Assembly (NCBI GenBank): GCA_015660855.1
Contig: JACSDG010000056.1
Span: 1 to 46,310, forward strand
Direction: 5' to 3'
DNA: 46,310 nt
From: Magnetococcales bacterium
GTDB taxonomy: Bacteria; Pseudomonadota; Magnetococcia; Magnetococcales; UBA8363
Shown: positions 21,127 to 40,997 of the stretch, piece after piece
Numbering within the stretch: the first letter of the stretch is position 1
How the letters are laid out: each line of letters starts with the position of its first letter
Made by a program: the position numbers and the translations under genes
The notes under the pieces: generated by a model
Told to the model about the DNA's origin: nothing
Database searches by the model: none
The model's input: the letters and a program-made list of their open reading frames with translations, nothing else

Positions 21127-21975
21127 TTATCCCAATAACTGCAAAGCCAACTGGGGCTGCTGATTGGCTTGGGCCAAAACAGCGGTTCCCGCCTGCTGCA
21201 AAATGGCATTGCGCGTCAAAGTCGCAGTCTCTGCGGCAATATCGGCGTCCATGATGCGTGAACGGGCGGCCGACATGTTTTCGACCACATTGGAAAGGTT
21301 GGCAATCACCGCCTCGAACCGGTTTTGCACCGCGCCAAGATTGGAGCGAATGTCGCTGACACTTCCCAAGGCCAGGTCAATCTTGGCCAGAGCCGACTGC
21401 GCCCTTGAAGCCGTTGTAATGTCAACGGAGTAGGTCTTGATGGCCGTGCCGCTCAATCTCCCAAGTCCCAATTTTGACATATTGGCATTGTTGATCGAAA
21501 CCTTGATCGTTTGTCCAGCGTCCTTGCCTACCTGGAAGGCTGCTCCAACGACACTTCCATTCAAAACGCCCCGGTCGTTGAATTTGACATCCGCCGAGAT
21601 CCGTTGAATTTCCGCGATCAATTGCTTCACTTCCTTGTTCAGATCGCCACGGTCATTGTCCGTGTTGGTCGCATTGGCTGCCTGCACCGCCAGCTCGCGA
21701 ATCCGTTGCAACGAATTGGTGGTCTCCTCCAGGGCACCCTCGGCCACCTGCGACAGGGAAATCCCGTCGTTGGCGTTGCGAACCGCCTGGGTCAAACCAC
21801 GAATCTGCGAGGTCATGCGTTGCGAAATCGCCATCCCCGCCGCATCATCCTTGGCAGAGTTGACCCGCAGGCCCGAAGCCAAACGGGCAAACGTTTTCCC
21901 AAGGGCGTTGGTGGAACGATCCAGATTTCGTTGGGCGTTTAACGAAGCGACGTTGGTATTGATAAAAAGCGGCAT
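21127..21975 (-). CDS. Flagellin, short form
   Basis: This 282-residue flagellin consists of little more than the conserved D0/D1 helices. The N-terminal part runs [20 protein letters not shown] through [20 protein letters not shown], and the C-terminal part [20 protein letters not shown] through the terminal [14 protein letters not shown]. There is only a small central segment and no Cys. It is secreted through the flagellar type III system after FliS binding. GGGGA precedes the ATG. The 306-bp leader up to fliW carries hairpins that may bind CsrA. Unlike the fliD group, no sigma-28 site is seen before it, so it is probably transcribed together with fliW. Confidence 0.95.
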   Translation of the reverse strand: MPLFINTNVASLNAQRNLDRSTNALGKTFARLASGLRVNSAKDDAAGMAISQRMTSQIRGLTQAVRNANDGISLSQVAEGALEETTNSLQRIRELAVQAANATNTDNDRGDLNKEVKQLIAEIQRISADVKFNDRGVLNGSVVGAAFQVGKDAGQTIKVSINNANMSKLGLGRLSGTAIKTYSVDITTASRAQSALAKIDLALGSVSDIRSNLGAVQNRFEAVIANLSNVVENMSAARSRIMDADIAAETATLTRNAILQQAGTAVLAQANQQPQLALQLLG

Positions 21976-21992
21976 GGTTCATTCCCCTTTGT

Positions 21993-22009
21993 CTGGGATC
22001 CACTCCCAG
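21993..22009 (-). promoter_or_regulatory. Leader hairpin with GGA loop before the short flagellin (CsrA-type site)
   Basis: In the mRNA CTGGGA-GTGGA-TCCCAG forms a 6-bp stem with GGA in the loop, about 18 bases before the start codon and next to the Shine-Dalgarno GGGGA. GGA in a hairpin loop close to the ribosome site is the pattern CsrA binds. Confidence 0.5.
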
Positions 22010-22079
22010 TCCAACCCTTGACGGGCCAGTTTTATATTGCTGACGAAGCCGGGCCTCTTGCCCGCCATTCTTTTTCTTC

Positions 22080-22098
22080 CCCCAATCATCCTTTGGGG
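22080..22098 (-). promoter_or_regulatory. Second leader hairpin, loop AGGATGA (CsrA-like)
   Basis: In the mRNA CCCCAA-AGGATGA-TTGGGG forms a perfect 6-bp stem; flanking TT/AA can extend it with one bulged base. The loop with its flanks, CAAAGGATGAT, is close to the CsrA consensus ACARGGAUGU. It lies 105-125 bases before the flagellin start, giving a two-site leader together with 21993-22009. Confidence 0.55.
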
Positions 22099-22282
22099 AA
22101 AACCCTGGAGATGGAACTCTGTCGTACCGCCTAAGCGTTCGATTCAACGAGGCTGCCCGTACCGTACATCAACCCCGAAGCCCAAGTTCCCTCCACCGGG
22201 AGGTCACTCCATCTGTCTCTTGTCCTATGACTAATTTACAAAAACAATGTTCACGTCTTTATGTTTTTTTAATTCCCCTCCT

Positions 22283-22774
22283 TCAAACAGCCATCATCAT
22301 GGGTTTACGCATTTCATTCATCGCCTGTTCCCGTGCCTGTGCCTTGTACTCCTTGGGAATCAAAGGTTGGCGTGGCGAATATTGGCCGAGCAAAATCTGT
22401 CTGCCCAGACGGGTTTTGGTATTGACCACCACCGGACCCGCCAGGTTGGTGCGCATATCCTCGGGATGCCCTTCGGGAATCGTCACCAACGTGAACATTT
22501 CAATATCTTCACTCTTTTGCAGCTTGATGGCCTCGGCATCCTCGTCGGCGATCTCAAACTCCAGGTCGGAGAAAAAATCAAACGGATTGACGACGATAAA
22601 GGAAATCTCCGGCTCATCCACCGACTGCAACCAAAAGAATGATGAATCATCCGAGTAGGGAAACATGATATAACGCCTACTCATGGGAAACCCCAACAAG
22701 CCATCCTCCACCTGGATGATGTCGTCAGCATCAAAACTCAGGGTTCCGAAACGGGTGCCATGAACCTCCATCAT
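22283..22774 (-). CDS. fliW: FliW, flagellin assembly factor (copy 1)
   Basis: This 163-residue protein has the FliW signature [59 protein letters not shown] and [11 protein letters not shown]. FliW binds flagellin and, when free, sequesters CsrA, so it lifts the block on flagellin translation. The start at 22774 (MMEVHGTRFG) is preferred over 22798 because AGGGAG lies six bases before it and the second FliW starts MEIHGTRFG. It is followed by the short flagellin gene, whose leader carries possible CsrA sites. No csrA gene is in the window. Confidence 0.93.
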   Translation of the reverse strand: MMEVHGTRFGTLSFDADDIIQVEDGLLGFPMSRRYIMFPYSDDSSFFWLQSVDEPEISFIVVNPFDFFSDLEFEIADEDAEAIKLQKSEDIEMFTLVTIPEGHPEDMRTNLAGPVVVNTKTRLGRQILLGQYSPRQPLIPKEYKAQAREQAMNEMRKPMMMAV

Positions 22775-22973
22775 CGTCTTCTCCCTGTCATTGGGCACCT
22801 CGTCGTCGATTGCTACGGGCAGAAACTTTTAAAATCCCAACCCGATACTTCGAGGATCCCATCAGTTAAACATTTTGTTCATTCCTGGCCTGAAGCCAAA
22901 TTCCATATACGTTCTATCTATTCTTTAAAAAATGTGCCGCGACCACCTTGACCCAACCATCCTGACAGACTTA

Positions 22974-22990
22974 TTGCACCAACCGTGCCA
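22974..22990 (-). promoter_or_regulatory. Sigma-54-type promoter upstream of fliW copy 1
   Basis: On the minus strand TGGCACGGTTGGTGCAA matches TGGCAC-N5-TTGCA with one mismatch in the -12 box and has the exact GG-N10-GC spacing. It would give a long leader of about 190 nt to fliW. The two sigma-54 activators at the left of the window are candidate partners. Confidence 0.65.
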
Positions 22991-23107
22991 ACAAATTTCT
23001 CTTGTATTTCCCCACCTTTGCTCCCCTCCTCCCTTCATCCAACCTGCCAAGGAGGTAATTGTTGCCCACCCTCCCGGCAAACTTTGATCCCGATGGCCTT
23101 GGCCGGA

Positions 23108-23145
23108 AGTCCGCTTGCCTTTGGAGTGGGGTGGCAAGACGGACT
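23108..23145 (-). terminator. Strong hairpin after the long flagellin gene
   Basis: AGTCCG-CTTGCC pairs with GGCAAG-a-CGGACT: 12 bp with one bulged base around a 13-nt loop. It lies 18 bases after the stop of the long flagellin gene. No T-run follows on the minus strand, so mRNA stabilisation or factor-assisted termination is as likely as intrinsic termination. Confidence 0.5.
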
Positions 23146-23162
23146 CCCCTTAGGCCTCATCC

Positions 23163-25208
23163 TTAACCAAGAAGTTGCAGTGCCAGCTGCGGCTGTTGAT
23201 TGGCCTGGGCAAGAATCGCCGTCCCCGCCTGCTGCATGATGGCCAACTTGGTTAAATTGGCGGTTTCCTCGGCGACATCGGCATCAAGAATCCGCGAGCG
23301 AGCGGCGGAAACATTTTCCACCACGTTGGACAGATTCTTGATATTGGCTTCAAACCGATTTTGAATCGCACCCAGTTCAGCCCGTGTTGCCGACACCCGA
23401 TCAATGGCCTCCTTGACGATGGCGATCATCCGGGCTGCGGCTTCCTGTCCCGCCAACGGCGGATTGGTAGAATCGGTGGTCGGAGGGTTGAACGGCAACG
23501 TCGGATCGGTCGGAACCGAATTGCCGGTGATGTCCACCAGAGGTACCGGGGGAAACTTGTTGGCCCCAGAGGTATCGATAAGCCAGGAAGGGACGGTTAC
23601 ATATTCCCCACCCGTAGGTTGCGAAGCCGCCGATACCGCCGCATCACGCGCACCCAAAACCAGGGCCATGTTTTTTCCAGCCGTCGTGGCCTGGGCTACC
23701 GTTCCACCCGGCTTGGCCGCCGCCAAACCGGCAGCCGCGATAATCTTGGCCTGGGAAAGAGTCAGTTTTTTGGACTGGTCGGCAGACACCGCCGACTCGG
23801 CAACCGTTTCAATGTCCTTGTTTTGACTGATGGCAGCATCAAACGCCTTGATAACCAGTATGATGTTTCCCACCGGGACATCGGCAACACTGGTCCCCTT
23901 CGTCACGGCGTTATCCACCACATCCGCCGGAGCCGCGACATTGAGGGTAATGGCCCCATTGGTCGTCCCAGCCAAGGCGGTGTAAGCGGTGGGAACGTTT
24001 TCGGAAGCGGTATAACTGCGGGTCGCCTCGTAGGTAGCCGCAGCCAGAACCCGTGCCTGATCGGAATCCATGGTTGGATCGGTAGGTTTCACCGTGGCTT
24101 CGGCCACCCAGGCGGCGATGATATTGGCCTTTTTACCAGCCCCCCCCGTCAGTTTGGTCGCACCATCGTTGTTGCGGCCAAAAGCGGCTAGTGCCGCAGA
24201 AGCCAGCCCCGTCGCATCGGTACCGGTCACAAGGGCATTGGCCGTAGTAATGTCGGTAGCAATTTGGGTGGCGGTCTTGCCGTCGGCGATACCGTTGCTG
24301 ATGGCGGTGTTAATCGTAGCGTCCGGAGCCCCTAAAAGCTTGGTCACGATGGTGGTTGCCGTTTGATCGACAGTGGCACCATCGGCAATCCCTGCTGCCA
24401 AAGAGCTGACAACGCCAGTACCGCTGATCACGGCCGCTTCAACTGCGGTTTTCACTGTTGTGACATTTTTATTGTCAATGGCGGTCAGCATGTTGCTGGC
24501 CACACTCGTGCTCAACGTCGTCGAAGGGGGCTTTCCCAAGGTGTTGGCATTGGCCAATGTACCCACCATCTTTGCCGCCTTGGAGCTGAACAGCTTGGAA
24601 CCCTCCAGTTGTTGCGCCGGTGCCTTGATGGTCAACCCCTTGATTTTTGGATTGTTGACACTCTCCTTGTTGTTGGGATCGGCCAGTTTGGGGATCGCCA
24701 ACAATTTCTCGGCGCGGGCATCGGCCAGAGTGACCACAATGGTCTGGCTCTCCTGGGCACCCACTTGAAAAACCAAAGGATCGGTCTGGCCATTCAGCAT
24801 GGGCCAACCGTTGAACTCGGTCTCATTGGCCACACGCTCGATTTCCGACAACAGTTGCGAAACTTCCTGTTGCAAACTTTCACGGTCCTGAGGACTGTTG
24901 GTGGCGTTGGCGGCCTGCACCGACAGTTCGTTGATGCGCTGGAGCATGTTGGAATGCTCTTGCAGGGCACCCTCAGCCACCTGCGAGACAGAAATGCCAT
25001 CGTTGGCATTGCGTACGGCCTGAGACAAACCGCGAATTTGCGATGTCATGCGGTTGCTGATGGCGAGACCGGCGGCATCATCGCCGGCGGTGTTGATGCG
25101 CAGGCCAGAAGAAAGCCTTGCGAAAACTTTGTTCAGATCTCCCGTCGAACCCAACAAATTGCGCTGGGCATTGAGGGAGGCGATATTGGTATTAATGTAG
25201 AGTGGCAT
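23163..25208 (-). CDS. Flagellin, long form with large central insert
   Basis: This 681-residue flagellin has conserved ends: [20 protein letters not shown] through [20 protein letters not shown] at the N-terminus, and [20 protein letters not shown] to [14 protein letters not shown] at the C-terminus. About 400 central residues (about 170-590) are rich in Ala, Thr, Gly and Val and lack Cys and Trp over most of their length. They contain related units such as [20 protein letters not shown] and [20 protein letters not shown]. This insert would be exposed on the filament surface. It is preceded by its own fliW by 43 bp, with AGAGGAAA before the ATG. Confidence 0.94.
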
Positions 25209-25251
25209 GACAGTTTCCTCTCGATACTTTCCTGTTGACCCCCTTGGGAGG

Positions 25252-25791
25252 TCATCCGGCCGCAGCGACTTTCAGCGACTTGTTTTTTTCCGACGGACGC
25301 GTACGGTTGCGCGCCCCCCTGTTCACTGGTTTTTTCCGACCCGACTCAAGCAAATATTTGGCCCGCAATTCCTTGGGAATCAGCGGCTGTCTTGGAGAAA
25401 GCTCCTTGATCAATATCTGCCTGCCTTTACGATTGTCGGTGTTCACGACGACCGGACCCGCCAGATTGGTGCGCATCTCCTCGGGCCGACCTTCGGGAAT
25501 GGTCACCAGTGAGAAAACCTCGACATCATCACTGCGCTCCAATCCCAAATATTTCGCGTCTTCGTCCTGAATGGAAAACTCCAAATCGGCGAAAAAATCG
25601 AACGGATTGACCACGATGAAAGCAATCTCGGGTTCATCCACCGACTGCAACCAGAAAAATGAGGAATCCTGACCGTAAGGAAACAACAAAAACTTTTTGC
25701 TTAAAGGAAACCCCAACAGACCATCTTCGATGGTGATGATCTCACTTCCCTCGAACTCCAGTACCCCAAACCGGGTTCCATGAATTTCCAT
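25252..25791 (-). CDS. fliW: FliW, flagellin assembly factor (copy 2)
   Basis: This 179-residue FliW starts [20 protein letters not shown] and keeps [60 protein letters not shown] and [14 protein letters not shown]. It carries an extra basic tail ([20 protein letters not shown]) that copy 1 lacks. The start at 25791 fits TGGAG at the right distance; the frame extends to 25809 but without a site. It lies 24 bp after flgL and 43 bp before the long flagellin gene, so it probably serves that flagellin. Confidence 0.93.
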
Positions 25792-25815
25792 GTTTATTCT
25801 CCACTCCAAAAGATA

Positions 25816-33283: not shown

Positions 33284-36200
33284 ATGGGTGTGGGCAAAAG
33301 TTTGACAAAATTCATGATGGTTGCGTTGGTCTTTCTGGCCATCGCCCAGATTCCGGCCCCTGTGTTTGCCGGACCCGCAGCCGTGTCCGCCGTTTCCCCG
33401 TCTGGAACCGTCAACACGCAAACGCCTACCTATGTCTGGACCGCAGAAAGCCTGGCAAGCAGTTACCGCCTCGTCGTCTTGAACGTGAAAAAGATGACCT
33501 TTCTGGACGAATGGTACACCAAGGCCGAAACCAACTGTTCCGGGGGGACCGGCAATTGTTCGCTCACGCCATCCACAACCCTTCCTTCCGGAAATTATAC
33601 CTGGTACGCCCTCGCCAACAATGGGGTTGCCAAAGCACTCTCTCCCATGAGTTTTTCGGTGGTGCCAGTCACCCTGTCTCCCGGCTATCCCAACGGACAA
33701 TTGACTGCCGCTCCCAGCGCGTTCAGTTGGAGTGCGGTTGCCGGAAGCACCAACTATCTTTTGACATTGACCAAAACGGGTGAAACACCAATCACCAAAT
33801 GGGTCTCTGCGGTCGGAGCCAGTTGTTCGAGTGGCTCCGGAACGTGCAGTACCTCCATTTTCACGACCTTCACTAACGGGACCTATTCCTGGACGATCAA
33901 ACCTTTCACCAGCACCTTGCAGGCGGTGTCAACCTCCGCAACCTTTACCCTGACGGCGGCGACGACCACCCCCTTAATCGTGTCGCCCACGGGTACCGTA
34001 ACAACCAACACTCCGACCTACACCTGGAATGCCGAAGCGAGTGCCACCGAGTACGTTTTTCGCGTGGCAACCAACAGCGGCCTGGTTTTGTACAGCGCAT
34101 CGCTAACACCGACAACAGCCGGTTGCCCCGCCGGGACCGGAACCTGTTCGACAACCCCGGCAGTCACCCTTCCTTCCGGAATCATTAAATGGTCGATTGC
34201 GGTGCTGCCCTCCAAAAACAGCGGGGAGGCCACCATAACCGTTCCCACCCCGACGCTGGGGACACCCACTCCCAAAACACCCACGGGAACCGTGGCCAAC
34301 CTGACCCCCAGTTTTTCCTGGAGTGCCGTACAAGGGGCCACCCATTATCGCATCAAAGTTACCGACGCCACCGCAGACGTGGTCCTTGATACCACTTACA
34401 CCGCCGCCAACGCCGCCTGTTCCAGCGGTTCCGGCACCTGCACGGTATCACCGGGGACTACGCTTGCGACTGGAAACGGTTATTGGACCATCATGGCGCA
34501 GAACACCACCAACAGCACCCAAAGTGCCGAATCGAGTCGCCTGACCTTTACCATTACGTCTCCAGCGACAGCCCCAGGGATCCCAACTCCAGTGGCCCCC
34601 ACAGGAGCAGTCACATCTCTGACCCCGACGTTTTCCTGGAATGCAACCAGCAACGCCAACACTTATCTGGTCCGGGTCACCGACGCCAGTGCCGCAACCG
34701 TGACCCGTGTGGTTTCATCCGTTACCGCAGGTTGTCCTTCATCCAGTGGCACCTGTACCACCACTTTTCCCAATCCATTCGTCGCCGGCAGCGGTTCCTG
34801 GACCGTTCAAGCTTATAGTTCCGAAACCAATCTTACCGGAACCATTTCCAGCAGCTTGAGTTTCACCTTGAGTGCCCCCTCCACGGCATCCGCGCTGCTG
34901 GTATCGCCCCTCGGCACCTTGACGACCAACACCCCAACCTATACCTGGAACGCCGAAGCCGGAGCCACCGGGTATATTCTGAAAGTGACAACCAACAGTG
35001 GTCTGGTCCTGCACTACGACAACATGACCCCCACGGCAGCCGGCTGCGCCGCTGGCACCGGAACCTGTTCGGTAACCCCTGCCGTGACGCTGCCCTCCGG
35101 AATCATCAAATGGTCGGTATCGGTGACTCCGTCCAAAACCACCGGCGAAGCGACTGTCACAGTTCCGGTACCGGCACTGAGTACCCCTGCCCCGGTTGCC
35201 CCCAAAGGAACCGTCGCCGGCCTGACGCCCAGTTTTTCCTGGAGTGCCGTCCAAGGGGCGACCCATTATCGTTTGCGGACCACCGACGCCAGCAATCTTT
35301 TGGTTATCGACCAAACTTACAGCGTGGCCACGGCTTCCTGTTCCAGTGGTAGCGGCACCTGCTCGATTTCGCCGGGAACGACATTGGCCGAGGGTAACGG
35401 CTACTGGACCATCATGGCACTCAACACCACCAACAACACCCAAAGTGCCGAATCCGGTCGCCTGAACTTCACCATCACCCCAGCGGCCACAGCCCCAGGA
35501 ACCCCGACTCTGGTTTCACCCACAGGGGCCGTGACCTCCCTGACGCCCACGTTTACCTGGAATGCCACCAGTGCCGCCGACAATTATATCGTCAAGGTAA
35601 CCGACGCCAGCACAGCAACGGTCACCCGAATCGTTTCCGCCACCCAGGCCGGTTGTGTATCATCCAGTGGCACCTGTACCACACAGTTTCCCAACCCTTT
35701 TATCGCCGGTGCCGGTTCCTGGACCGTTCAGGCTTTCAGCTCCGTCAGCAATCTTACCGGCACGGTTTCCGCAAGCATGTCCTTCACACTCAGTGCCGAA
35801 GTAACAAGCAACATACTGGTATCGCCTTCGGGAAATATCTATGAAAAAAGCCCGACTCTGACCTGGAACGCCGTCGCCGGTGCCACCCAATACATGGTCA
35901 AAATTTTAACAACCCATGCCATCCAAAAAACCTATCTTAACCAGATCTACACCATTGCCGAGGCGGGTTGTGCCAGCGGAACCGGGCAATGTTCGGTGAC
36001 GCCATCGGTGCAACTGGATGTGGGGAATTATGTCTGGTCGGTGGGAACAATGCCGACGGTGCGCGTTTATCAACAAAACTTCACCGTGCTCCAAGGGGCG
36101 ATTTCCCTTTCATCAAGCACCTTGGTTGAAAATACGTCCACCCCCGTCAAGGTGGGAACCCTCTCCTTCAGCGATAGTTCCACCGTAACGTACAGTCTCA

Positions 36201-38272
36201 CGGGAGGCGTCGATTATGCCTCCTTCGAGATCACAAATTCCAACGAGCTTTGGGTCAAGTCGGGAGTGACGTTAAACTACGAAAGCAAGACCGTTCTGGG
36301 CGTTCAGATCACGGGAGGGGGGACAACACAACCTTTCACCATCCAAATCACCGATGTCAATGAAGCCCCCACCAATATAACCCTGTCGGCATCATCCGTA
36401 GATGAAAACAGGGACACGACAAGCAACCTAGCAGTAGCAACACTAAGTGCCACCGATCCCGACCTGACAGCGGCGTTCCTGAGTCCTGTCTTTTCCATCA
36501 CCGGGGGGGCAGACCAGGCCAAGTTTGCCATCAATGGCAGCACCCTGGAACTGAAAACGGGAACGGTTTTGGATTATGAGGCCATGACCACCCCTTCCTT
36601 TCAAGTACAACTCAAAGTAACCGATGGCGGCAGTCTTGAGTATACCAAGGATGTCACCATCGCAGTCAATAATGTCAACGAGGTCCCGACAGCCGTATTG
36701 CTTTCGGCGGCGTCCGTCAACGAAAACACCGATACCACCAGCAATGCCACCATTGCCATTTTATCCGCAGTGGATCCCGATGCCGGGGATACGTTCACCT
36801 ACAGCGTCACCGGGGGAACGGACCAGGCCAAGTTTGTCATCAGCGGTGCCAATCTGCAACTCAAGGCGGGGACGGCGTTGAATTATGAGGCCATGTCCAC
36901 GCCCAGCTTAAGCCTAACAATTACCGCCACCGATGCCGGAGGGTTGGCCCTGGCCAAAAGTTTCACCCTGGCGGTCAACGATGTCAACGAAGCCCCGACG
37001 GACATCAGTTTGAGTCCCGGTATCATTTACAGCAACGTCGATAATTCCGTCGATATGGACGCAGGAACCTTGACCGTCACCGATCCGGACGCCGGCAATA
37101 CCCATACCTGCACCGTCTCGGGAGGGACCGACCAGGCCAGTTTCAAGATCACCGGTGCCGTACTGCAATTGAAGGCGGGGACCGTCTTGAATCTCAGTAC
37201 CCAACCGACTTATTCCGTCCAAGTCACCTGTGCCGATGCCGGAAGTTTGTCGTTTGCGAAAACTTTGACCGTCACCTTGCAGGCCATCAACCGTTCCATC
37301 ACCCTGGCCAATCCATCCATCAATGAGAACACCAGCACCACCTCCGATGTCAGTTTGGGGACATTGATTGCGGTGGGCAACCAAGCCTTTTCCCTATCCG
37401 GCGGTGCCGATCAAAATTCATTCACACTGGTGGGAAGCCAGTTGTACATCAAGGCGGGTACGACGCTCAATTATGAAGCCAAATCCAGTTACGTCGTAGA
37501 AATTTCCAATACCGACGCCCTTGGGGCCTACAGTGCCACCCTGACCATCGCCGTCAACGATCTCAACGAGGTCCCCACCAACATCAGCCTGAGCAACAGT
37601 GTCCTTCCTTTCATTGCCCGCCCCACCAATGCCGCAGTCGGGACTCTGAGTACCACCGATCCAGACAGCAACGAAAGCTTTACCTATTCCCTTTCCAACA
37701 GCCTTGGCGGACGGTTCGCCATACTGGGGGATCAACTGCTGGTAGTGGAAACCGACACCCCGGTCCATGGCATCTTTGACCTAACGATCCGGGTTACCGA
37801 CAAAGGCAGCTTGACCTTTGATAAAACTTTTTCGATTACCGTGGTGGGATTTTCGGTGGAATCCATTCCCGACACGCCAAACGTTTCTGCGATGTTGTCC
37901 ACCTCGCGGGCCACCTATGCCAACATTTACAACAATCTGGTATCTGCCCAGACGGGTCAGCAGATTGTTGTCTCGGAAGAGGAGTTTGAAAATTTGGCAT
38001 TGGGCAAAGCGGCACAACAATTGACCGATCTGGGGGCGTTCAGCCAAGCCATCACCGATTTCATATACAAATTTGACATTCAGATCACCACCAGCCTGAT
38101 CACTGTGACCCTCAAGGTTCGCGCCTGTCGGCCACGACCCGTAGCGCAGCCCAGTCTGTTCTGGACCTTTTGGCTCCCTATGCGTCGGGTTATACCTTGG
38201 GTGTGCGAATGCGGATCAAACCGGTTGTCAGCGGTATCAATATTACCCTGGATACCGGTTCCTCCTACGTAG
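33284..38272 (+). CDS. Giant secreted protein with Fn3-like and cadherin-like repeats
   Basis: This frame encodes 1662 residues, with a signal peptide (SLTKFMMVALVFLAIAQIPA, cleavage near PVFAG). Residues about 35-935 hold nine beta-sandwich modules that open with a (P/S)TYTWNA or (P/S)FSWSA strand. Each carries a short Cys loop C-x3-(T/S)G-x-C such as CSSGSGTC, at about residues 85, 181, 281, 379, 483, 588, 686, 790 and 896. Residues about 937-1523 hold six cadherin-like modules (VNEAPTNI, VDPDAGDTFTYSVTGGTDQA). It is a surface adhesin or matrix protein. The last 50 residues here are out of frame: a -1 shift near 38112-38126 disconnects the true C-terminus, which follows at 38125-38670. The frame is complete with no other breaks, so sequencing error or recent mutation are both possible. 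Confidence 0.85.
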   Translation: MGVGKSLTKFMMVALVFLAIAQIPAPVFAGPAAVSAVSPSGTVNTQTPTYVWTAESLASSYRLVVLNVKKMTFLDEWYTKAETNCSGGTGNCSLTPSTTLPSGNYTWYALANNGVAKALSPMSFSVVPVTLSPGYPNGQLTAAPSAFSWSAVAGSTNYLLTLTKTGETPITKWVSAVGASCSSGSGTCSTSIFTTFTNGTYSWTIKPFTSTLQAVSTSATFTLTAATTTPLIVSPTGTVTTNTPTYTWNAEASATEYVFRVATNSGLVLYSASLTPTTAGCPAGTGTCSTTPAVTLPSGIIKWSIAVLPSKNSGEATITVPTPTLGTPTPKTPTGTVANLTPSFSWSAVQGATHYRIKVTDATADVVLDTTYTAANAACSSGSGTCTVSPGTTLATGNGYWTIMAQNTTNSTQSAESSRLTFTITSPATAPGIPTPVAPTGAVTSLTPTFSWNATSNANTYLVRVTDASAATVTRVVSSVTAGCPSSSGTCTTTFPNPFVAGSGSWTVQAYSSETNLTGTISSSLSFTLSAPSTASALLVSPLGTLTTNTPTYTWNAEAGATGYILKVTTNSGLVLHYDNMTPTAAGCAAGTGTCSVTPAVTLPSGIIKWSVSVTPSKTTGEATVTVPVPALSTPAPVAPKGTVAGLTPSFSWSAVQGATHYRLRTTDASNLLVIDQTYSVATASCSSGSGTCSISPGTTLAEGNGYWTIMALNTTNNTQSAESGRLNFTITPAATAPGTPTLVSPTGAVTSLTPTFTWNATSAADNYIVKVTDASTATVTRIVSATQAGCVSSSGTCTTQFPNPFIAGAGSWTVQAFSSVSNLTGTVSASMSFTLSAEVTSNILVSPSGNIYEKSPTLTWNAVAGATQYMVKILTTHAIQKTYLNQIYTIAEAGCASGTGQCSVTPSVQLDVGNYVWSVGTMPTVRVYQQNFTVLQGAISLSSSTLVENTSTPVKVGTLSFSDSSTVTYSLTGGVDYASFEITNSNELWVKSGVTLNYESKTVLGVQITGGGTTQPFTIQITDVNEAPTNITLSASSVDENRDTTSNLAVATLSATDPDLTAAFLSPVFSITGGADQAKFAINGSTLELKTGTVLDYEAMTTPSFQVQLKVTDGGSLEYTKDVTIAVNNVNEVPTAVLLSAASVNENTDTTSNATIAILSAVDPDAGDTFTYSVTGGTDQAKFVISGANLQLKAGTALNYEAMSTPSLSLTITATDAGGLALAKSFTLAVNDVNEAPTDISLSPGIIYSNVDNSVDMDAGTLTVTDPDAGNTHTCTVSGGTDQASFKITGAVLQLKAGTVLNLSTQPTYSVQVTCADAGSLSFAKTLTVTLQAINRSITLANPSINENTSTTSDVSLGTLIAVGNQAFSLSGGADQNSFTLVGSQLYIKAGTTLNYEAKSSYVVEISNTDALGAYSATLTIAVNDLNEVPTNISLSNSVLPFIARPTNAAVGTLSTTDPDSNESFTYSLSNSLGGRFAILGDQLLVVETDTPVHGIFDLTIRVTDKGSLTFDKTFSITVVGFSVESIPDTPNVSAMLSTSRATYANIYNNLVSAQTGQQIVVSEEEFENLALGKAAQQLTDLGAFSQAITDFIYKFDIQITTSLITVTLKVRACRPRPVAQPSLFWTFWLPMRRVIPWVCECGSNRLSAVSILPWIPVPPT
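33980..35818 (+). repeat. 921-bp tandem duplication inside the giant gene
   Basis: The three-module block at 33980-34900 is repeated at 34901-35818, in frame, with a period of 921 bp (307 codons) and then 918 bp. Each block reads NTPTYTWNAEA, LTPSFSWSAVQGATHYR, LTPTFSWNATS in order. The similarity at DNA level (for example AGTTTTTCCTGGAGTGCCGT in both) points to a duplication of a finished three-module unit. Confidence 0.85.
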
Positions 38273-38670
38273 ATTTTGTCGATGAATCCGATTATGTGCC
38301 CACCCTATCCATAGGCATGGGAACCTTGATTTCCACCTATAACGACACGGTCAACGCCCTGGCCAGTAACGATGCCCTGGCCTTTTTCCTTGGTGGCGGT
38401 GCGCGTCCCCCGGTCCATTTTCTCAAGGAATCTTTGGGAAGTGCCAACAAAGCGGAATTCGTGAACCAATCCAATGTCGGGCTCAATCTGGATTCCGGGG
38501 CCTCGCGTGCCACAAGCACCCTGGCTGACCGCAGCACCCAGGGGGGATTGTTGATTCCATTGACACAGCGTGTGGATTATTATTTCCCTGGGCTGATTTC
38601 TGCCATCACCCTGCAAAACAATACCGTGACGCTGACACGAAGCAGCTTGACCATTCCCCCGGCGAATTGA
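38125..38670 (+). pseudogene. Detached C-terminal part of the giant secreted protein
   Basis: This open frame is offset by -1 from the giant gene and starts LSATTRSAAQSVLDLLAPYA, reading through GYTLGVRMRIKPVVSGINIT to a stop at 38670. Its first ATG is internal, at 38170, and has no ribosome site. Frame A ends in a nonsense-looking tail (RACRPRPVAQPSLFWTFWLP), whereas this frame keeps plausible composition, so it is the natural continuation. The stop of this frame upstream is at 38074, so the indel lies between there and about 38126. Joined, the protein would have about 1795 residues. It could be translated as a separate 166-residue protein from 38170, but that is less likely. Confidence 0.7.
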
Positions 38671-38881: not shown

Positions 38882-40864
38882 TCAAAATCGATTCATCAAA
38901 TCGGGGATCCACAAAACCCGATCATCACTGGAGCAGATCATTCCGGCAATGGGGCCGTCCTGGGAGATGACAAAGGCGACAACCCCCGGATAAGCCCCTA
39001 CCAGATTAACGGCTGAGGCATGACGGGTACCATATTTTTCCAGATCCACATCCACCGTGTCGGCTCCGTGGTCGTCCAGGCAATAGAGAGTCCGGCCACG
39101 CCAGCGTTGCGATGAAAGCATGGTGCCAAAGGAAAGGGGGCGCAGGCGGTGCGAAAGAATCAAGGCCCCATCCACCCGACTCAAATGGGCCAACCTTTTG
39201 GCATGGAAAAGCACCCGTCTTGCCATCTCACGAATTTCTTTGCGTTTTTTCTTATTTTTTATAGGCTCCTCCAGACGACTGGCACAATAACCTCCCAACA
39301 ATCTGGAAGCGTCGGTGGCATTGGTAAAACGATACCTGGTAACCAGAGAAAGGACGGTACGATGATCGTCGTTATCGGGCACCCAGATGACAATACCACC
39401 AAAACCACCCCGGCCAATTTCCACCAACAATCTTTGGATAAAATTACGATATCGACTCCAATAATTTTCCCCAAACTGGTTGAATTCCGGATGATTGCGG
39501 ACCGTCTTGAACAAAGCCTGGCCAATGAGGCTGGTTTCAAAGGAGCTGTTGCCAGGGAGAGAAAAATGGCCGGCGTGAAAACGCGCCAATACCCGACTGC
39601 CCCAGGAAACCACCAGGGATCCCGCCCGATTGGAATAGACCGATAAAAAATTGTCCGGCGGGGCGTGATGGATCATGGGATACAAACGCGGCCCATCGCC
39701 ATCTTCCTGAAACACCGCCCCCCAAATTTCCAAATTGCGTGGATCTCCTTTTTGCGGACAAACGGCCAGCACCGTGTTTTCCGGGTCAAATCCACGGGCC
39801 AGTTTGACCAGGGCGTCGATGGTGAAAGGTTGGCTTTTTTCCAATTCGAGGGTTTGATATTCAATTTTTTTTCTACGCATGGTGCCGATGGGAAAACTAC
39901 GATCCATAAGCAAAACATTAGGCATGACCGGACGGTCTTCCTCGCGATTCAACCCAGCGAGGAAAACCGTTTCCATCAACGAGCGGATATGCAGCTTGGA
40001 AACCCGCATCAGGTCTTCGCCACTGACATCACTGAGGAGCGAGGTGATTCGTTCGATAATGCGGTTGTCGAAAAGGGCCGTCCCCTCCAGACCGCCCATG
40101 AACCGCGCCCGTTCGCCCAGGTCGCGCATGACGGCCGAAAAAAAAGGCTTCCCCGGGATTTGCCATGCGGCCAAAGATATTTCCATGGGGAAGGTTTCCC
40201 CGTTCTGACGCAACCCCACGCATTCAACCGTTTCCCCCCGTTCCCGCAGATACCCCAGTTCCACCGCATGAAAAAAAGCGTGTTCAAATTCTCTACGCCG
40301 CCCTTCGGGCATCAACAGGGCAAAGGACAAACCCATGATCTGGTGTGAGGCATAACCAAACAACGATTCGGCCCCCTTGTTCCAAAATTGAATCAACCCT
40401 TTTCCATCCATGGAAATAATGGCTTCGGTCGTGGAATCGGTGATATTCCGAAAGCGTTTTTCGCTGTTTCGCAGGTGCAGCATGGAACTGCTGCGTTCCA
40501 GAATCAGGCGGATGCGTTGTTTGAGCACCGGCCAGCGAATGGGTTTGGTAACGTATTCTTCGGCTCCCGCCGCAAAGGCACGATCCACCGAATCATCATC
40601 GTCCAACCCGGTAATCATGACGATGGGGATGTCACTTCCCCCTTCCAAAGCTTTCATGGAGGCGCAGGTTTGGAAACCGTCAAGGCCAGGGAGATTGGCA
40701 TCCAGCAACACCAGATCCGGCATCATATTGCCAAACCGTTCCAGTGCCTGATTGCCATCTTCGGCTTCCAAAATATCGTAGCCTTCGCGGACCAATCTGT
40801 GGCGCAGGAAAAGGCGGATGTCGGGATCATCATCCACGACCAAAATAAGGTTTTTCTTTACCAT
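38882..40864 (-). CDS. Response regulator with PAS and DisA-like (DAC-like) domain
   Basis: This protein has 660 residues from the ATG at 40864. Residues about 5-120 are a complete receiver domain: acidic pocket VVDDDPD, phospho-acceptor Asp55 in DLVLLDANLPG, MITG and TKP. Residues about 130-255 are a PAS domain (FRNITDSTTEAIISMDGKGL). A middle region of unknown type follows. The last 100 residues read VDGALILSHRL then VDLEKYGTRHASAVNLVGAY and VVAFVISQDG, which is the order of the DGA and GTRHR motifs in DisA-type diadenylate cyclases. The second Arg of the RHR motif is Ala here, so ligand binding or weak synthase activity are both possible. A longer frame to 41005 exists. It is divergent from the carbonic anhydrase gene. 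Confidence 0.82.
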   Translation of the reverse strand: MVKKNLILVVDDDPDIRLFLRHRLVREGYDILEAEDGNQALERFGNMMPDLVLLDANLPGLDGFQTCASMKALEGGSDIPIVMITGLDDDDSVDRAFAAGAEEYVTKPIRWPVLKQRIRLILERSSSMLHLRNSEKRFRNITDSTTEAIISMDGKGLIQFWNKGAESLFGYASHQIMGLSFALLMPEGRRREFEHAFFHAVELGYLRERGETVECVGLRQNGETFPMEISLAAWQIPGKPFFSAVMRDLGERARFMGGLEGTALFDNRIIERITSLLSDVSGEDLMRVSKLHIRSLMETVFLAGLNREEDRPVMPNVLLMDRSFPIGTMRRKKIEYQTLELEKSQPFTIDALVKLARGFDPENTVLAVCPQKGDPRNLEIWGAVFQEDGDGPRLYPMIHHAPPDNFLSVYSNRAGSLVVSWGSRVLARFHAGHFSLPGNSSFETSLIGQALFKTVRNHPEFNQFGENYWSRYRNFIQRLLVEIGRGGFGGIVIWVPDNDDHRTVLSLVTRYRFTNATDASRLLGGYCASRLEEPIKNKKKRKEIREMARRVLFHAKRLAHLSRVDGALILSHRLRPLSFGTMLSSQRWRGRTLYCLDDHGADTVDVDLEKYGTRHASAVNLVGAYPGVVAFVISQDGPIAGMICSSDDRVLWIPDLMNRF

Positions 40865-40997
40865 GGGGTCCAAGCAATCCAATGGGTTTAAACGGTCCTT
40901 GACTTTCAAGACGAGGACACGATAAGGATGGGTGTCGTTGACGAAGGAAAAGCGCAATGCCCCAATCCAGAAAAATCTGTCCAGACCGGAGATTACA

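Follow-up and report, generated by a model that had tools for sequence, protein, structure and literature searches.

The gene on the minus strand at 38882..40864 of the Magnetococcales DNA analysed here (the window, 46,310 nucleotides in all) encodes a 660-residue response regulator whose C-terminal motifs recall those of diadenylate cyclases (DACs). It raises the question of whether a phosphorylated receiver in this lineage governs the synthesis of cyclic di-AMP (c-di-AMP). We put at about 0.62 the probability that the protein is a response regulator with a divergent diadenylate cyclase output, controlled through its receiver (REC) and PAS domains, and one of three paralogues.

The open reading frame and Pfam matches give the domain order REC, PAS, DACNV and a C-terminal DAC-like domain. 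The frame upstream of the ATG at 40864 stays open to 41005; the start is placed at that ATG because six close orthologues from Magnetococcales MAGs (80-85% identical) share it, and because an earlier start would run the gene into the divergent one at 40932. The receiver (residues 7-119, 40508..40846, minus strand, as for all parts of this gene; PF00072, 93.1 bits) has the acidic pocket D11-D12-D13, the phosphorylation site D55 (codon 40700-40702), T85 and K107-P108, and all of these residues are invariant in 21/21 full-length REC relatives. It is followed by a PAS domain (residues 137-247, 40124..40456; PF00989, 43.4 bits). A preliminary description, made from the sequence alone, had reported a receiver with a complete phosphorylation site and a PAS domain after it, and the Pfam matches agree on both. 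The DACNV "probable sensor" domain (residues 292-384, 39713..39991), absent from that description, scores 47.4 bits with PF21751, above the curated cut-off of 27; its Pfam name ties the family to DAC proteins, and a DAC-type domain does follow it here, in a divergent sense. Profile and single-sequence searches of the PDB with the 660-residue protein matched the PAS domain of FixL alone. Heme binding by this FixL-like PAS was considered and set aside, as the FixL heme His was unmatched in an alignment inspected by eye.

The DAC-like domain spans approximately residues 465-660 (38885..39472). Within it, GGIVI (489-493, 39386..39400) is a weak match to the GALI motif of DACs, DGA occupies residues 565-567 (39164..39172), GTRHA (612-616, 39017..39031) corresponds to canonical GxRHR without the second Arg, and SQD (634-636, 38957..38965) is the equivalent of the SEE motif, which serves ATP phosphates and metal. 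The DGA and YGTRHASA segments pointed out earlier are thus confirmed, the latter at residues 611-618.

On the minus strand the gene is isolated. Its upstream neighbours, conserved beside the orthologues as well, encode a hexapeptide-repeat protein, a Ser/Thr kinase, a PilZ protein and a fumarase; the hexapeptide-repeat protein is the product of the divergent gene at 40932 and resembles gamma carbonic anhydrase. No histidine kinase was found among the ten larger neighbouring ORFs scanned. Elsewhere in the window, the giant repeat protein encoded at 33284-38272 (plus strand) has a last stretch of about 60 residues that looks out of frame, and an ORF in another frame at 38170-38670 (plus strand) seems to continue it, so that a frameshift at about 38150-38210, real or a sequencing error, is probable. 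The region 21130-25809 (minus strand) holds two apparent flagellin genes in one cluster, each with its own FliW-like gene.

The Pfam model for the DAC domain (PF02457, DAC / DisA_N) matches the C-terminal domain below its curated cut-off of 27, with 12.8 bits for the full protein, 14.2 for the core and 15.2 in the genome scan. A sub-threshold match of this kind was present in 32/32 diverse family members scanned, where PF02457 was the sole family besides DACNV to recur, and a weak DAC match was found in 41/48 Magnetococcia genomes, mostly within the DACNV protein itself. Comparison by hhalign of a profile built from 54 family members with canonical DACs gave a score of 42.3 and a probability of 84, with the DGA, GTRH and SQD/SEE segments all aligned between the two; the maximum for 60 column-shuffled profiles was 21.0, and the reversed control scored 12.4. 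A bridge to recognized DACs is provided by a DACND-DACNH-DAC protein, L132, from a Candidatus Tectomicrobia genome. Its DAC domain scores 49.7 bits, over the cut-off, and it too is without the second Arg of the RHR motif (GARYNSA). The family aligns with L132 colinearly over 274 columns (E 5.5e-8 as a single comparison), and L132 in turn finds CdaA weakly in a PDB search (E 0.03). The pattern DGA...GxRHxxA...S[EQDH][DE] occurred in 81 of the 3,799 ORFs of at least 100 residues in the fetched DNA; it is not a chance pattern, because all 81 are either members of this DAC-like family or canonical DACs. AlphaFold2 models from a 7-sequence alignment were of low confidence (pLDDT 34.5 for the 399-residue core, 36.7 for the 216-residue DAC part).

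Judged by these profile and motif comparisons, the C-terminal domain of the 660-residue protein is related to DAC. We call it divergent DAC-like, rather than a standard DAC, because it falls below the Pfam cut-off and lacks the full RHR motif. The contrary explanation, that the domain is unrelated to DAC and the motifs coincide by accident, seems to us very improbable: it is in keeping with the sub-threshold PF02457 score and with a search of PDB sequences by the family profile, which returned no DAC chain and just chance matches such as SEC13, but the shuffle and reversal controls, the 32/32 matches, the L132 bridge and the association with DACNV speak against it. The earlier proposal of a DAC-like domain at the C-terminus of a response regulator is accordingly upheld by the PF02457 matches, hhalign and L132. 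The DisA_N profile search proposed with it gave a match under the cut-off.

The residues expected to matter for catalysis are conserved throughout the family. D565, R614, H615, S634 and the acidic D636 are each found in 54/54 relatives, bare single-copy members included, as are the Ala of DGA and the Gly of GTRH; the Gly of DGA is kept in 53/54 and T613 in 44/54. None of the 54 has the second Arg of RHR: position 616 is N, A, T, G, S or I and never R or K, so the family motif is GxRHxxA in place of GxRHRxA. GALI is matched weakly, by GG[TIA][IV]I, with T, I or A for the Leu that contacts adenine. The Ser and acid of the SEE-type site are preserved as S634 and D636, with Asp replacing Glu. The Arg-to-Ser spacing is 20 residues, against 19-20 in the canonical DACs whose SEE site was located. 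Compared with CdaA, the DAC segment has insertions of about 16-30 residues. Among orthologues, dN/dS is lowest in the DAC-like part (0.025-0.049, compared with 0.046-0.144 for REC), values that are rough because dS is near saturation; on this rough measure, purifying selection on the protein is strongest in the DAC-like domain.

In CdaA of L. monocytogenes, numbered from residue 100, the side chains at the ATP site are L31, D71, T102, R103, H104, S122 and E124; this list of ATP contacts omits the second RHR Arg (PMC7288161). Equivalents here are D565, T613, R614, H615, S634 and D636. Mutations D172A (the DGA Asp) and R203A (the first RHR Arg) abolish activity of L. interrogans CdaA, and S222A leaves about half (PMC12974146). 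Replacement of RHR by AAA abolishes activity of the M. tuberculosis enzyme (PMC3328451), which leaves the second Arg's own role unsettled because all three residues were replaced together; our literature search found no single mutant of that Arg.

The genomic setting was surveyed in 48 Magnetococcia genomes and 350 from other Pseudomonadota. DACNV was found in 43/48 of the former vs 0/350 of the latter, and 7TMR-HDED, a marker of PgpH, scored over its cut-off in 46/48 vs 1/350. The phosphodiesterase search recommended in the preliminary description was positive in the source genome, which encodes a PgpH-type protein (7TMR-HDED, 7TM and HD) flanked by phoH and ybeY. No canonical DAC over the cut-off was found in the source genome, and none in the 48 Magnetococcia genomes. 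Three DAC loci in the class score over threshold: two belong to another divergent family, and one is a DACNV-DAC protein that passes solely when neighbours in frame are counted. Elsewhere in Pseudomonadota, over-threshold DACs occur in 73/350 genomes, 69 of them within one family-level group, and the single PgpH-positive genome outside the class had no DAC match. A large family-level group of other Pseudomonadota (f18, e.g. L147-L150) has canonical CdaA-type DACs (GTRHRAA) and no 7TMR-HDED, the reverse of the situation in Magnetococcia. Searches for a c-di-AMP riboswitch and for the CdAMP_rec receptor found neither in Magnetococcia.

PgpH enzymes are c-di-AMP phosphodiesterases, and for this reason the class probably makes c-di-AMP. 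Because nearly all members have PgpH and none has a standard synthase, the DACNV-DAC family is probably the missing synthase, the best candidate for the class's source of c-di-AMP. The co-occurrence of DACNV and PgpH is confined to one clade and may therefore represent one historical event. A second DAC-like family (333 residues, GGRHDSS...VVSQDGPVSW; contig C51 of the source genome, L104:4328-5326, minus strand) was set aside as an alternative source, since it is present in just 3/48 Magnetococcia. The family is sporadic, and its C51 gene adjoins an AAA ATPase and a 500-residue protein without a Pfam match, possibly in a defence island; PADLOC gave no match for the DAC-like protein itself. 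The statement in the preliminary description that c-di-AMP signalling is uncommon in proteobacteria is in line with published work (PMC10745434), yet DACs over threshold occur in the 73/350 genomes counted above.

The preliminary description took the Ala at the second Arg of RHR as a possible sign of a sensor rather than a synthase. The substitution itself is real and family-wide, as the absence of that Arg from every relative shows, and a receiver-controlled DAC-like protein was correctly recognized; the step from Ala to sensor is not favoured. A nucleotide sensor would bind ATP or c-di-AMP without catalysis and combine phosphorylation with nucleotide level. We consider this unlikely, though the likeliest of the alternatives. 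The incomplete RHR, the weak GALI and the sub-threshold Pfam score are all compatible with it, and three paralogues per genome in the genus allow for non-catalytic members. Against it, the missing Arg is no listed ATP contact (PMC7288161), and the Asp, Arg, His, Ser and metal-site acid never vary, even in bare single-copy members; they include residues required in L. interrogans CdaA. The class's PgpH would, moreover, be left with no other synthase to supply its substrate, there being no canonical cyclase. Less likely still, and in our view improbable, is an enzyme with the DAC fold, cyclase or nucleotidyltransferase, whose product is something else: a linear, mixed or different cyclic nucleotide. 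The altered adenine-contact position in GALI and the inserts in the DAC segment would suit such an enzyme, but the PgpH present is of the standard kind, whose known substrate is c-di-AMP.

The paralogues offer a view of how a DAC-like output may have come under receiver control. In most Magnetococcia genomes DACNV-DAC occurs bare, as a protein of about 415-450 residues, and forms with REC-PAS or GAF in front of DACNV-DAC occur in the source genus and a few other genera. The source genome has two REC-PAS forms, the window gene and one on contig C164 (40% identical), and one GAF form on contig C148. In a quick, unrooted tree of 54 cores, with some long branches, the 27 sequences of REC form make up one side of a branch with SH-aLRT of 100, and two label changes suffice to explain the distribution. 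This topology suggests a single origin of the REC clade. The simplest interpretation is that REC was gained, which is not proved because the root of the tree was not inferred. No relatives were found in viral contigs or plasmids. In three genomes of two other families (L139, L141 and L142), the bare gene lies by eye between dsrA-like and ABC-transporter permease-like genes.

For the favoured reading, a response regulator with a divergent cyclase output, we propose the following sequence of events. A partner histidine kinase would phosphorylate D55, and the resulting change in REC, modulated by a PAS ligand and by DACNV, would pass to the C-terminal DAC-like domains, activating rather than inhibiting them. 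These would pair face to face and convert ATP to c-di-AMP, which the class-wide PgpH would degrade. The ancestral form would be the bare DACNV-DAC protein, probably the class's c-di-AMP source, which may have been duplicated in this lineage, with REC-PAS inputs added in two paralogues and a GAF input in one. We lean, by a small measure, toward the broader proposal that the c-di-AMP cycle of Magnetococcia is complete and relies on a divergent DAC family that lacks the second RHR arginine, and that one lineage has placed it under two-component control as an analogue of PleD/WspR.

c-di-AMP is usually described as a messenger of Gram-positive bacteria, cyanobacteria and deltaproteobacteria, its synthases being controlled by membrane partners or by DNA. 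If our reading is true, a receiver-controlled DAC would tie two-component signalling straight to c-di-AMP, in the way that PleD ties it to c-di-GMP, and the link would lie in a class of magnetotactic bacteria. The second RHR arginine would be dispensable, and profile-based surveys would therefore overlook functional cyclases. A literature search found no c-di-AMP work on Magnetococcia and no REC-DAC protein; Galperin 2023 (J Bacteriol 205:e0002323), which is said to define DACNV (PF21751), lay outside that search.

Among known systems, the closest in architecture are the DACNV-DAC proteins, in which an over-threshold DACNV likewise precedes a C-terminal DAC-type domain; the 660-residue protein adds REC and PAS in front, and its DAC-like domain has diverged beyond the reach of the Pfam DAC model. 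L132 shares the colinear DACNV/DACNH-type domain plus DAC and the missing second Arg, but it begins with DACND, and its DAC scores over the Pfam cut-off where that of the 660-residue protein is sub-threshold. CdaA/DacA enzymes, such as CdaA of L. monocytogenes, have the same order of DGA, GxRH and Ser plus acid, with near-identical Arg-to-Ser spacing. Our protein differs from them in having REC-PAS-DACNV instead of an N-terminal membrane domain, in lacking the second RHR Arg, and in carrying inserts between the GALI, DGA and GxRH segments. DisA also has the DAC-type motifs and shares with our protein the sequence ISQ at the place of VSEE in CdaA; the DAC of DisA is N-terminal, whereas the DAC-like domain here is C-terminal, with no HhH match and no middle linker domain. 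The closest parallel in regulation would be the REC-GGDEF proteins of the PleD/WspR type, in which a phosphorylated receiver governs synthesis of a second messenger. Their output is GGDEF, producing c-di-GMP, whereas the output here is DAC-like, with c-di-AMP as its predicted product, and the two share no output fold.
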